Assembly (NCBI RefSeq): GCF_002943105.1
Contig: NZ_PTPZ01000002.1
Location: 1-64,000 of the forward strand
Length of the DNA stretch: 64,000 nucleotides
Reading direction: 5' to 3'
Source: Cloacibacterium normanense
GTDB lineage: Bacteria; Bacteroidota; Bacteroidia; Flavobacteriales; Weeksellaceae
Under the pieces are notes generated by a model, which was given only the letters and a program-made list of their open reading frames with translations, was not told where the DNA came from and made no database searches. Of the stretch, positions 9,611-24,281 are shown piece by piece (positions within the stretch are counted from its first letter, which is position 1; every line of letters starts with the position of its first letter). The position numbers and the translations under genes were made by a program.

Positions 9611-12157
9611 TTATTTCTTCTTCGTTGCAGGTTTTTTAGCAGCTGTTTTCTTTGCCGCAGGTTTTTTCTTTTCAGCAAAAGCTGTTTTATCTTGGTCGGT
9701 AATCCATTTTTTTACTTCATCCAAAGAAACGGCTTGCAATTCTTCTGCTTCAAATTTACTTCCGTCTTCTTTTTTAGGGATTTTGAACATTCCTTTTCCG
9801 AATTTAATAAAAGGACCCCATCTTCCGTTTTCAATAGAAATTTTTTCTTTTTCCCATTGCTGAATATAACGATTTGCTTCTTTCTCTAATTTGGCAGAAA
9901 TGAGTTCTTCAATATCTCCTTGAGTAAGATTATCAAAATCATATTTCTTAGGAACATTTACATATAAATCTTTGTATTTTACAAATGGTCCAAATCTTCC
10001 TGTTCCTTTCGTCACAGGTTCACCTTTATAAGTGGCAATTGGCGCATCTGCTTCTATTTTTTCTTTGATAAAATTTTCTGCAACCTCTTGAGTTACCGAA
10101 AAAGGATCTGTTCCTCTTCCAATAGAAATAAAAGCATCTCCCCATTTTACATAAGGCCCGAATCTTCCTACGCCAACAGAAACTGGTTTTCCTTGGAATT
10201 CATTTAAATCAAAAGGAATTTTAAATAATTCTAGCGCTTCTTCAAAACTGATGGTATTGATATTTTGCGTTGGCAAAAGTGAAGCATAAGTCGGTTTCTC
10301 TTCATCATCATTTTCCCCAATTTGAATCATCGCACCATATCTTCCCATTCTAGCGTAAACATTTTTGCCAGATTTAGGATCTACACCTAATAATCTTTCG
10401 CCAGTAGCTCTGTCTGCATGTTCTTCTACATCTTCAATTTTCGGGTGGAAATTATCATAGAAATGTTTCAGTGTTTCTTTCCATTTTTCTGAACCATTGG
10501 CAATATCATCAAAATCTTGTTCTACTTTTGCAGTAAAACCATAATCTAAAATTTCATTGAAATTATTGATTAAGAATTCATTCACCACTTCGCCAATATC
10601 TGTAGGAACGAATTTATTTTTATCTCCACCAAATTTCTCCGTCAAAACTTCTTTTTTCAGTCCAGATTTTCCCAAAGAAAGTTTCACGATTTCTCTTTCT
10701 TGCGGAAGAATTTCGCGTTTGTCAACATATCCCCTATTCTGAATCGTTTGAATTGTTGGTGCGTAAGTAGAAGGTCTTCCAATTCCTAATTCTTCTAATT
10801 TCCTTACCAAAGCAGCTTCCGTATATCTTGCAGCAGGTTTGGTATATTTTTCGGTGGCTGTAATTTTCTTATAGCTTAAAACTTCGCCTACATTTACTTT
10901 TGGCAATAGTTTTTCGTTGTTTTCCTCATCATCTTCTTCAGTTTTCGAAATTCCATAGACTTTTAGGAAACCATCGAAAACAATTACTTCACCTTGTGCT
11001 TCGAAATGACTTGGCAAAGCAGAATTCCCGATTTCAATTACAGTTTTTTCAATTTTTGCATTTGCCATCTGAGAAGCTAAAGTTCTCTTATAAATGAGTT
11101 GATATAATTTATTGAGTTGCGCATCACCAATGGTTTTCACTCCAAAATCAGTCGGACGAATCGCTTCGTGCGCTTCTTGAGCAGATGCAGATTTTGTAGT
11201 ATAATTTCTAGGCGAAGAATATTCTGCCCCAAATTCTTTTTCGATGAAATCTTTAGCAGCGCTAATCGCATCTTGAGATAGATTTACAGAGTCTGTTCTC
11301 ATATAAGTAATGTACCCTTCTTCGTAGAGACGCTGTGCAATTCTCATGGTAGAAGTTACATTGTATCCTAATCTATTAGACGCTTCCTGTTGCAATGTAG
11401 AAGTAGTAAAAGGTGCAGAAGCAGAACGTGTTCCTGGCTTTTTTTCTACATTTAAAACTTTGAATTCAGTATTTTGAGATTTTTCTAAAAATGCTTCTGC
11501 TTCTTTTTCTTGAGCAAAATCTTTTTTCAGTTTTGCAGCAATTTCTTGCTTTTCGGCATTTAAGAAAGTTCCTTCCACTTTATAAGTAGAACTCGGTTTG
11601 AAATTTCTAATTTCTTGTTCTCTTTCTACCACCAATCTTACTGCAACAGATTGTACTCTACCTGCCGAAAGTCCTGTTTTTACTTTTTTCCAAAGTACTG
11701 GCGACATTTCAAAACCTACAATTCTGTCGAGAACCCTTCTTGCTTGTTGAGCATTTACGAGATTCTGGTCAATTTTTCTAGGGTTTTCAATCGCTTTCAG
11801 GATTGCATTTTTGGTAATTTCGTGGAAAACAATACGTTTGGTATTTTCTTCTTTGAGTTTTAATTCTTGTGCTAAATGCCAAGCAATAGCTTCTCCTTCA
11901 CGGTCTTCATCGGAAGCCAACCAAACGATTTCCGCTTTTTTCACCGCTGCTTTCAGTTCAGTTACTAATTTCTTTTTATCCGCAGAAACTTCGTAATCTG
12001 GCGTGAAGGTTTTAAGGTCTATTCCCATTCCTTTTTTGGGTAAATCTCGGATATGACCGAAGCTAGATTTCACTTCGAAATCTTTCCCGAGATACTTCTG
12101 AATGGTCTTCGCTTTTGCTGGTGACTCTACGATTACTAGATTTTTTGACATGCACAA
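9611..12157 (-). CDS. topA: DNA topoisomerase I
   Basis: Type IA topoisomerase that relaxes negative supercoils by cutting one strand. The 848 aa contain a Toprim domain (VESPAKA near residue 10, DEDREGE metal motif), the active-site segment GYITYMRTDS with the catalytic Tyr, then four C-terminal GRFGP/GRWGP-type repeats instead of Cys4 zinc fingers, and a Lys/Ala-rich tail likely to bind DNA. Two starts are possible: ATG at 12157 or 12151 (MSKN). A TACTTTTG -7 element at 12173-12166 puts the start site near 12159, favouring 12151 with a very short leader. Confidence 0.95.
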   Translation of the reverse strand: MCMSKNLVIVESPAKAKTIQKYLGKDFEVKSSFGHIRDLPKKGMGIDLKTFTPDYEVSADKKKLVTELKAAVKKAEIVWLASDEDREGEAIAWHLAQELKLKEENTKRIVFHEITKNAILKAIENPRKIDQNLVNAQQARRVLDRIVGFEMSPVLWKKVKTGLSAGRVQSVAVRLVVEREQEIRNFKPSSTYKVEGTFLNAEKQEIAAKLKKDFAQEKEAEAFLEKSQNTEFKVLNVEKKPGTRSASAPFTTSTLQQEASNRLGYNVTSTMRIAQRLYEEGYITYMRTDSVNLSQDAISAAKDFIEKEFGAEYSSPRNYTTKSASAQEAHEAIRPTDFGVKTIGDAQLNKLYQLIYKRTLASQMANAKIEKTVIEIGNSALPSHFEAQGEVIVFDGFLKVYGISKTEEDDEENNEKLLPKVNVGEVLSYKKITATEKYTKPAARYTEAALVRKLEELGIGRPSTYAPTIQTIQNRGYVDKREILPQEREIVKLSLGKSGLKKEVLTEKFGGDKNKFVPTDIGEVVNEFLINNFNEILDYGFTAKVEQDFDDIANGSEKWKETLKHFYDNFHPKIEDVEEHADRATGERLLGVDPKSGKNVYARMGRYGAMIQIGENDDEEKPTYASLLPTQNINTISFEEALELFKIPFDLNEFQGKPVSVGVGRFGPYVKWGDAFISIGRGTDPFSVTQEVAENFIKEKIEADAPIATYKGEPVTKGTGRFGPFVKYKDLYVNVPKKYDFDNLTQGDIEELISAKLEKEANRYIQQWEKEKISIENGRWGPFIKFGKGMFKIPKKEDGSKFEAEELQAVSLDEVKKWITDQDKTAFAEKKKPAAKKTAAKKPATKKK

Positions 12158-12299
12158 AATTTTTGCAAAAGTAGAAACTTTTTTTTAAACAATCGTTTTT
12201 AGCAATTTTCTTACGACTATCTTTTCTTCAAATAAAGTATTTTATCTTCGTTTCATTCATTTTTTCTATAATAAGAAGTTGGTTTTTTTTGGCATTTAA

Positions 12300-12331
12300 T
12301 TTGATGAAATTCTGACAATGATTTATTTTTG
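12300..12331 (+). promoter_or_regulatory. Promoter of the Cys-leader / DUF4395 transcript
   Basis: TTTG (12300-12303), a 20-bp spacer and TATTTTTG (12324-12331) match the Bacteroidota consensus. The expected start site is about 12338, only some 6 bases before the leader ATG at 12344. In the rest of the gap, 12174-12299, I see only A/T-rich sequence. Confidence 0.75.
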
Positions 12332-12343
12332 CATTATTAAAAT

Positions 12344-12427
12344 ATGAAAACCTCAACATCTACTTTAACAAAACTTCAAAAAATGAATTGCTGTTGTCCC
12401 TTTAAAAACCAAAAGAGGACAGATTAG
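12344..12427 (+). CDS. 27-aa leader peptide with three consecutive cysteines
   Basis: Open frame of 27 codons plus TAG. Residues 14-19 read MNCCCP; the Cys codons TGC TGT TGT are at 12389-12397. It lies between a near-perfect promoter and an intrinsic terminator, and its codons overlap two arms of alternative hairpins, as in classical amino-acid attenuators. The peptide itself probably has no function; its translation would report charged tRNA-Cys. Ser/Thr-rich residues precede the Cys run. Polycysteine leader ORFs acting as attenuators are known in mycobacteria; I know of no proven case in Bacteroidota. Confidence 0.7.
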   Translation: MKTSTSTLTKLQKMNCCCPFKNQKRTD

Positions 12428-12497
12428 GTTATGTATTTTTTTAAAAACACACATGTTATCATATATCACTGAGTCCTCGAAATGAGGACTTTTTTTT
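12395..12497 (+). promoter_or_regulatory. Candidate cysteine-responsive transcription attenuator
   Basis: Four pairing segments are visible. Segment 1 TGTCCCTTT (12395-12403) pairs with segment 2 AAAGAGGACA (12412-12421), with one bulged A. Segment 2 contains GAGGAC (12415-12420), which can instead pair with GTCCTC (12473-12478) of segment 3. Segment 3 AGTCCTC (12472-12478) pairs with segment 4 GAGGACT (12484-12490) to form the terminator. A ribosome stalled at the Cys codons would cover segment 1 and allow 2:3, preventing termination; one that reaches the stop codon (12425) would cover segment 2 and allow 3:4. Confidence 0.7.
12472..12497 (+). terminator. Terminator arm of the attenuator
   Basis: AGTCCTC / GAGGACT stem with a 5-base loop followed by eight T (12490-12497). 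It stands 26 bp before the DUF4395 start codon and after the leader peptide, so it would end the transcript before the structural gene. Confidence 0.85.
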
Positions 12498-12522
12498 ATT
12501 TAATTTTTTAAAATTTTCATTT

Positions 12523-12921
12523 ATGCCCACAGAAAACAAAATCAGAATAACCGCATTTTTAGTATTTATCTTAACCATTTTATACATCACAACTCATTCC
12601 ATTTGGATTCCTCTTTTTCTATTGATAGATTTCGCTTTCAGAGGTTCTGGATACGGAAAATGGAGTATTTTAGGATTCTTAGCAGAAAAAATAGTTTCGA
12701 TTTTTAATTTAGAACAAAAACCCATTTATTTTCCTCCGAAACAATTTGCTGCACAAGTCGGATTTATTTTTTCATTGACATTATTGGTTTTTAATCTTCT
12801 CGAAATCAACAGTCTTATTGTAAGCGGAATTTTGCTGATTTGCGCAGGTCTGGAAGCGTTTTTCAATTTCTGCGTAGGATGTTATGTCTACAATGCTTAT
12901 TATCACATCAAAAATAAATAG
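12523..12921 (+). CDS. DUF4395 membrane protein
   Basis: The 132-aa inner-membrane protein has four hydrophobic segments (about 9-33, 65-82, 85-102 and the end region) and closes with the DUF4395 hallmark FCVGCYVY, a CxxC-like pair of cysteines at the membrane face. The family's role is unknown; from memory, members often occur near thioredoxin-like or sulfur-transfer genes. The upstream leader with three Cys codons and a terminator suggests expression when cysteine is short, which fits a sulfur-related role (inference). Confidence 0.8.
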   Translation: MPTENKIRITAFLVFILTILYITTHSIWIPLFLLIDFAFRGSGYGKWSILGFLAEKIVSIFNLEQKPIYFPPKQFAAQVGFIFSLTLLVFNLLEINSLIVSGILLICAGLEAFFNFCVGCYVYNAYYHIKNK

Positions 12922-24213: not shown

Positions 24214-24268
24214 GAAATCTGTTTTAGCATTTTTTATTGAGGTTGCAATCAGTCCAAATTTTTCCTCT
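24214..24268 (-). promoter_or_regulatory. SAM-II-type riboswitch upstream of metK
   Basis: On the minus strand P1 is GAGG (24267-24264) with CCTC (24242-24239), and the loop holds the SAM-II-like ATTGCAA just before the 3' arm. Downstream AAAATGCTAAAA is the conserved tail. A pseudoknot of 7 pairs forms between loop AAATTTG (24261-24255) and CAGATTT (24221-24215). This matches the SAM-II (SAM-alpha) fold, and resembles the longer-loop variant I associate with Bacteroidota. It starts some 7 bases after the predicted transcription start. Confidence 0.75.
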
Positions 24269-24281
24269 AAAATTTGTTGGG

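Follow-up and report, generated by a model that had tools for sequence, protein, structure and literature searches.

A candidate cysteine-responsive transcription attenuator upstream of a DUF4395 membrane-protein gene in Cloacibacterium normanense

Inspection of the region upstream of a DUF4395 gene in the window (the whole stretch of 64,000 nucleotides from Cloacibacterium normanense analyzed here) revealed a leader that is probably a trp-type, ribosome-mediated transcription attenuator and a candidate for control by cysteine. Attenuators of the trp type possess four RNA arms, a leader peptide with control codons, and an intrinsic terminator. Here, the corresponding parts comprise a short leader ORF carrying a run of control codons for a single amino acid, 1:2, 2:3, and 3:4 pairings that exclude one another and in which a Cys-stalled ribosome is predicted to free segment 2, and an intrinsic terminator between the leader ORF and the gene (Table 1). 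The promoter, the 27-codon leader with TGC TGT TGT at codons 16–18, the 1:2 hairpin starting from the third Cys codon, the 3:4 terminator with eight T, and the DUF4395 gene shortly behind it had been described in a first-pass annotation of the same DNA. All of these were recovered, the promoter both by direct reading and by script.

Table 1. Positions of the leader elements and of the DUF4395 gene within the window
Feature	Position	Strand	Evidence
Promoter: TTTG 12300-12303 and TATTTTTG 12324-12331	12300..12331	+	Read in sequence
Leader ORF MKTSTSTLTKLQKMNCCCPFKNQKRTD, 27 codons, ATG 12344, TAG 12425-12427	12344..12427	+	ORF list
Alternative shorter leader ORF MNCCCPFKNQKRTD, inner ATG 12383	12383..12427	+	15 nt of MNCCC invariant
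Three consecutive Cys codons TGC TGT TGT, codons 16-18	12389..12397	+	Invariant, four genomes
Segment 1, pairs with 12412-12421, one bulged A	12395..12403	+	Folding; 1:2 hairpin -7.9 kcal/mol
Segment 2 AAAAGAGGAC, core GAGGAC 12415-12420 pairs with segment 1 or 3	12412..12421	+	10/10 columns invariant
5' extension of 2:3 helix: TTAG 12424-12427, ATGTAT 12431-12436	12424..12436	+	Folding
Segment 3: ATATAT 12461-12466, CTGA 12469-12472, GTCCTC 12473-12478	12461..12478	+	Folding; CATATATCACTGA 13/13 invariant
3:4 intrinsic terminator, eight T at 12490-12497	12471..12497	+	Hairpin 12471-12491; -11.6 kcal/mol; stem-loop 17/17 invariant
DUF4395 membrane protein gene, 132 aa, CVGC motif	12523..12921	+	PF14340, E 1.5e-28

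From this arrangement, we infer a transcription start, translation of the leader, ribosome stalling, read-through, and a cysteine signal as follows. RNA polymerase would start a few nucleotides after the −7 motif, with a ribosome following on the leader. When cysteine is ample, the ribosome would pass the three Cys codons and reach the stop codon, and segments 2 and 3 would stay apart; the 3:4 hairpin with its eight U would then form, and transcription would end before DUF4395. Under a shortage of charged tRNA-Cys, the ribosome would stall on the Cys codons and cover segment 1; segment 2 would then pair with segment 3 ahead of the synthesis of arm 4, and read-through into DUF4395 would follow.

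TTTG and TATTTTTG fit the −33/−7 promoter form of the Bacteroidota. A promoter scan built for sigma-70 gave no entry for 12300-12331. Across the four genomes with the leader, 31 of the 36 columns of the promoter stretch are invariant, and the A of the −7 motif is replaced by G in one relative, L005. In the window, topA is divergent from the leader and DUF4395, and the only forward ORF listed between topA and the leader (12102-12188) overlaps topA. Because topA is divergent, the forward terminator closes no upstream gene and sits in the 5′ UTR of DUF4395. The 25 nt separating the end of the T-run from the DUF4395 start hold no TAnnTTTG motif (the Bacteroidota form). Given this layout, with no forward gene after topA and no such promoter behind the terminator, expression of DUF4395 seems to depend on terminator read-through.

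The long leader ORF is in frame with the Cys codons in three of four sequences, the window included, and the shorter MNCCC frame from the inner ATG is open in all four. In L005 (genome G002), an additional A breaks the frame between the first ATG and the Cys codons; this leader may be decaying or carry a homopolymer sequencing error, or its translation may begin at the inner ATG. Cysteine makes up 0.9% of the 5,647 residues of nine window ORFs, and three successive Cys codons are rare. Among the 385 short ATG-initiated ORFs of the forward strand, nested starts counted apart, three cysteines in a row occurred only in the leader, under both of its starts. Among the 468 of the reverse strand they occurred in two (54538-54446 and 52702-52637), each likewise under two starts.

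DUF4395 is present in all seven genomes of the window's genus (g1), and in four of them (G000, G001, G002, and G006) the same gene is preceded by the leader. G003 possesses the same DUF4395-DUF2062-ileS order, the leader being missing and another gene lying upstream of DUF4395 (locus L004), and G004 and G005 carry only another DUF4395 type at other places. In the four leaders, which form two close pairs, the invariant columns comprise all 15 of MNCCC, all 10 of AAAAGAGGAC, all 13 of CATATATCACTGA, and all 17 of the terminator stem-loop. Variation is found in leader codons 1–13 (33 of 40 columns invariant), the spacer (24 of 39), segment 1 behind the Cys codons (4 of 6), the loop between segments 1 and 2 (5 of 7), and the stretch behind the T-run (17 of 25). 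The arms are nearly invariant and display only one-sided changes, from G-C to G-U in 1:2. An indel of 2 nt, located ahead of segment 2 and behind the Cys codons, shifts the reading frame, giving KRTD in the window and ED in L006 and L007, and the GAGGAC letters are unchanged despite the shift. Segment 2 is thus kept as RNA, as would be expected of a stretch that acts by RNA pairing. In an outgroup locus with a divergent topA (L026), DUF4395 has neither leader nor terminator, which suggests that the two were gained or lost together.

The first-pass annotation had also proposed a 2:3 pairing of GAGGAC with GTCCTC. This pairing is present, but the helix is not limited to 6 bp as had been stated: in the window it comprises GAGGAC/GTCCTC, TTAG/CTGA, and ATGTAT/ATATAT, i.e. 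6+4+6 pairs, and it is longer in L006 and L007. Terminator arm 4 has the same letters as segment 2. Apart from the window, the calculated energy of the 1:2 hairpin is −8.5 kcal/mol in L005, −5.9 in L006, and −5.2 in L007. The 2:3 region reaches −9.6 kcal/mol in both the window (L001) and L005, no more stable than shuffles (z −0.65 and −1.2), and −17.2 kcal/mol in both L006 and L007 (z −2.8 and −3.5).

Ribosome positions were modeled as a footprint of 31 unpaired nucleotides, assumed to cover the first base of the A-site codon together with 18 nt on its 5′ side and 12 nt on its 3′ side. Placing this footprint at the first, second, or third Cys codon gave a predicted probability of 2:3 before arm 4 exists of 0.99–1.00 in all four sequences. 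For a ribosome at the stop codon, as for RNA with no ribosome, the value in the window and L005 was 0.00. In L006, the probability before arm 4 was 0.70 for the stop-codon position and 0.23 with no ribosome, and in L007 it was 0.91 and 0.93. In the model, a Cys stall favors 2:3 in all four sequences, and the difference from a ribosome standing at the stop codon appears in the window and L005 but is weak or absent in L006 and L007. Because 2:3 also forms there with the ribosome at the stop codon, an on/off logic in L006 and L007 would need earlier formation of 1:2. In the full-length RNA, the terminator was preferred in every ribosome state, with a probability of 3:4 of 0.99–1.00 under the footprint model. 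A cruder ribosome model gave 0.69–1.00; its 2:3 probability of 0.00 at the stop codon in all four sequences holds by construction, as the RNA upstream of the ribosome front is removed. Since the full-length RNA favors the terminator in all states, switching would have to be kinetic, during transcription.

DUF4395 was found in 30 of 320 family genomes, and a contig search yielded only three spirochaete relatives. In 68 DUF4395 loci, the 90 nt next to the start codon were scanned for a terminator; the farthest in-frame ATG served as the start, a choice that is doubtful for a few loci. A terminator was present in 24 of the 68, namely the four loci with the MNCCC leader, 19 of 20 with a second type of leader (the MC leader, described below), and L133, whose terminator is attributed to the preceding gene. 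In the twentieth MC-leader locus, L018, the hairpin is present and the T-run is broken; 43 of the 68 loci showed no terminator within this distance. A terminator kept after loss of the Cys ORF, which had been named as an observation that would count against the attenuator, was not seen among the 68. We also considered the MNCCC pattern (ATGAAYTGYTGYTGY, found in 75 of 320 family genomes) as the mark of a wider leader family and discarded this idea. Of the 90 listed places, 54 were inspected by eye without gene annotation; four are the g1 DUF4395 leaders, and the other 50 of these lack a leader plus terminator and look like chance. An MNCCCFNKNFL ORF on the reverse strand of L083 (genome G004, of the window's genus) lies outside the DUF4395 locus, has no terminator in the next 200 nt, and is probably due to chance. 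A Cys ORF with a terminator was also absent at 16 PF01053/PF00291 loci of the genus, seven of them in this genome, a count that leaves out three weaker PF01053 matches of this genome.

A second leader was identified in another genus of the same family (g11), in which 20 of the 23 genomes searched carry DUF4395. All 20 loci display an ORF of 14–15 codons followed by a terminator hairpin, and in all 20 a gene with a NIL domain follows DUF4395. The peptide mostly reads M..IFS(Q/H)...MC., with deviations in IFS in L015, L019, and L033, and contains a single Cys codon, TGT or TGC. Like the g1 leader, it combines a tiny Cys-encoding ORF, hairpins, and an intrinsic terminator with DUF4395 as the target. 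It differs in its unrelated sequence, the single Cys codon after Met, a long 1:2 hairpin that encloses the ORF, and a possible Rrf2-type operator upstream. Pairing of its terminator is preserved in 100% of cells, with two pairs showing two-sided change, and that of the long 1:2 hairpin in about 80%; taken as a whole, 1:2 plus 3:4 scored hardly above shuffles. A 2:3 candidate was paired in 83% of cells with four two-sided cells, a result reached in 1 of 500 shuffles, and it was also reached when the alignment was slid by one column. When the RNA was folded freely with a ribosome stalled at Cys, the terminator still formed in 17 of the 20 g11 leaders.

Searching 316 family genomes with a covariance model of this leader (R1) produced 22 matches at E < 1e-14, consisting of the 20 training loci and two new ones. 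Both new matches come from g11 genomes without DUF4395, where the leader lies directly before a stand-alone NIL gene (E 3.5e-7 and 5.1e-8). The next match has an E of 0.001 and apparently lies inside a gene, and none of eight weaker matches inspected (L108-L115) has such a leader ORF. A regulon defined by the conserved g11 promoter element was tried and rejected, six genomes giving only the leader site plus one extra site in G227. Upstream of the leader, 19 of the 20 g11 loci (within L013-L035) carry an element resembling TACTTATTTGGTGG, and CTACTAAGTTGGTAG lies upstream of DUF4395 in L131, next door to an Rrf2 gene; L133 also has a candidate operator. Both elements are possibly Rrf2-type operators, judged by a pattern drawn up after they had been seen. 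Tentatively, we suggest that two genera of one Flavobacteriales-type family may have separately acquired Cys-sensing leader-peptide attenuators with intrinsic terminators on DUF4395, which we regard as a serious possibility short of a probable one.

The DUF4395 protein was modeled as six helices (mean pLDDT 81), and the best PDB match to its fold had an E no lower than 1.7. Near the C-terminus, the four proteins aligned share an invariant CxGC pair. In the window, the neighbors of the gene are DUF2062 and ileS, which are not sulfur genes. Among relatives, Pfam searches placed a Cys/Met PLP enzyme beside DUF4395 in L012 (likewise in L011 by similarity), a hexapeptide transferase (cysE-like, cut at the locus edge) and a PALP protein (cysK-like) before it in L147, and a Cys/Met PLP enzyme, a rhodanese, and TauE around it in L152. 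The same searches found tetrapyrrole methylase and siroheme-synthase domains nearby in L139, Rrf2 and AhpC in L131, a rhodanese in L119, and NIL in L156, where the gene order is tRNA-Cys, DUF4395, NIL. In L016, the MetN-like protein beside DUF4395 has a C-terminal NIL domain. By similarity, Rrf2 and AhpC also neighbor DUF4395 in L132, L134, L135, L143, and L146, and AhpC in L142 and L157. A tRNA-Cys gene lies just upstream of DUF4395 on the same strand in L136 (1938-2009) and L156 (1934-2006), and upstream of the AhpC gene in L157 (713-786). These are three of the 71 loci searched for tRNAs (26 + 45), and they come from three families. As a separate observation, DUF4395 forms part of a single 411-aa open frame in L155, the upstream part of which resembles a universal-stress protein by eye.

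Of the 28 class-level loci (L131-L158), 13 have a sulfur/cysteine, siroheme, Rrf2, or AhpC-type neighbor, and six have one specific to sulfur, cysteine, or siroheme (L136, L139, L147, L152, L156, and L157); these counts cover only the chosen sulfur/cysteine/Rrf2/AhpC gene types, and five of the Rrf2/AhpC loci belong to one genus. The sulfur-related role suggested earlier for DUF4395 gains support from the gene neighborhood of its relatives, and we infer that the protein contributes to thiol balance or to the acquisition of cysteine or sulfur.

The same neighborhoods bear on whether the attenuator might respond to another signal, with the nascent CCC(P/S)F peptide or slow Cys decoding sensing thiol-reactive stress, a metal (copper, zinc, oxidant), or a general translation slowdown. 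AhpC-type peroxiredoxins lie beside DUF4395 in eight of the 28 class-level loci and Rrf2 in six, five of these loci being from one genus, and a CCC run followed by P could conceivably bind metal. Nevertheless, the residues that follow CCC lack the conservation expected of an arrest peptide (PFKNQKRTD versus SFKTKEDGLDDVTF), g11 uses a different peptide with one Cys codon, and the neighbors include cysE/cysK-like genes and tRNA-Cys. We therefore consider this explanation unlikely.

Attenuation might also operate with no control by the leader codons, the terminator constantly lowering expression or responding to another factor and the CCC run being coincidental. The arms show no covariation, the leader of L005 is possibly decaying, and the predicted switch in L006 and L007 barely depends on ribosome position, all of which would fit such a reading. 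Against it, in 20,000 dinucleotide shuffles of 12332-12470, with the features picked after the fact, an ATG-initiated frame reaching three consecutive Cys codons arose in two, GAGGAC in 71, and the two together in none. A stricter, ungapped 1:2 criterion was failed by the window itself, its 1:2 helix being bulged. Because the shuffle features were chosen once seen, conservation is the better test, and MNCCC is invariant in four genomes; g11, moreover, has a separate Cys-bearing leader. We consider this reading unlikely as well. It is very unlikely that the leader is a separate small gene (for a small protein or an sRNA) with its own terminator, DUF4395 being expressed from another promoter or by constant read-through: the ORF and terminator do make a self-contained unit, but only 25 nt lacking TAnnTTTG lie between the T-run and the start codon, segment 2 repeats the arm 4 letters and is kept across the frame change, and the leader was found only upstream of DUF4395 among the 54 of 90 pattern matches inspected.

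As a candidate cysteine-responsive attenuator, the window leader resembles the trp type in that its consecutive control codons overlap segment 1, the 1:2, 2:3, and 3:4 pairings are alternatives, and a U-run terminator lies just before the gene. It differs from the classical examples in its control codon (cysteine), its target (a membrane protein rather than a biosynthetic enzyme), and its host (Bacteroidota, to which the promoter form, the gene content, and Flavo-1 also point). At gathering score, the leader matches no Rfam family, the only window matches being Flavo-1 and SAM-II elsewhere, and a search of nine loci against Rfam gave six matches up to E 1, none on a leader. The SAM-II riboswitch (RF01726) lies at 24214-24273 on the reverse strand, upstream of metK, and a SAM-I riboswitch followed by a terminator precedes metY in the same genome (L160). 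They are likewise cases of RNA control of sulfur genes, and the DUF4395 leader matches neither at gathering score. The Flavo-1 RNA (RF01705), a motif of unknown role, lies at 252-336 on the forward strand.

Short ORFs with Cys runs, without obvious terminators, have been proposed before cys operons of Actinobacteria (PMC1262725), and in M. smegmatis, leaderless ORFs with poly-Cys runs are reported to attenuate translation (Canestrari et al. 2020, via PMC9031893 and PMC13236596). The actinobacterial leaders share with the window a short ORF with consecutive Cys codons, theirs lying upstream of sulfur genes. The first ATG of the window leader, like the leaderless ORFs, lies a few nucleotides from the expected transcription start. 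The actinobacterial leaders were found without terminator hairpins (PMC1262725), act on translation in M. smegmatis, and carry the Cys run near the stop codon, whereas the window has an intrinsic terminator and a candidate antiterminator, and its Cys run ends nine codons before the stop. On these sequence features, the window leader would not belong with the actinobacterial poly-Cys leaderless attenuators. Within the Bacteroidota, two further papers note leader-peptide attenuation before amino-acid operons in F. psychrophilum (PMC9723704) and leader-like ORFs in some long 5′ UTRs of B. thetaiotaomicron (PMC7366714). Our search of the open-licence PMC literature found no cysteine attenuator of the four-arm, intrinsic-terminator kind.

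The window attenuator would be of the classical four-arm cysteine type, in a phylum where leader-peptide attenuation has been little studied, and it would turn on the small membrane-protein gene DUF4395 when the cell is short of cysteine. If two genera did separately acquire such attenuators, DUF4395 would be a cysteine-supply protein, e.g. a membrane transporter or a thiol/persulfide handler acting via its CxGC motif, and would work with the NIL methionine-sensing domain. Together, the regulation and the gene neighborhood tie DUF4395, a family seldom named in the open-licence literature, to cysteine and offer a testable lead.
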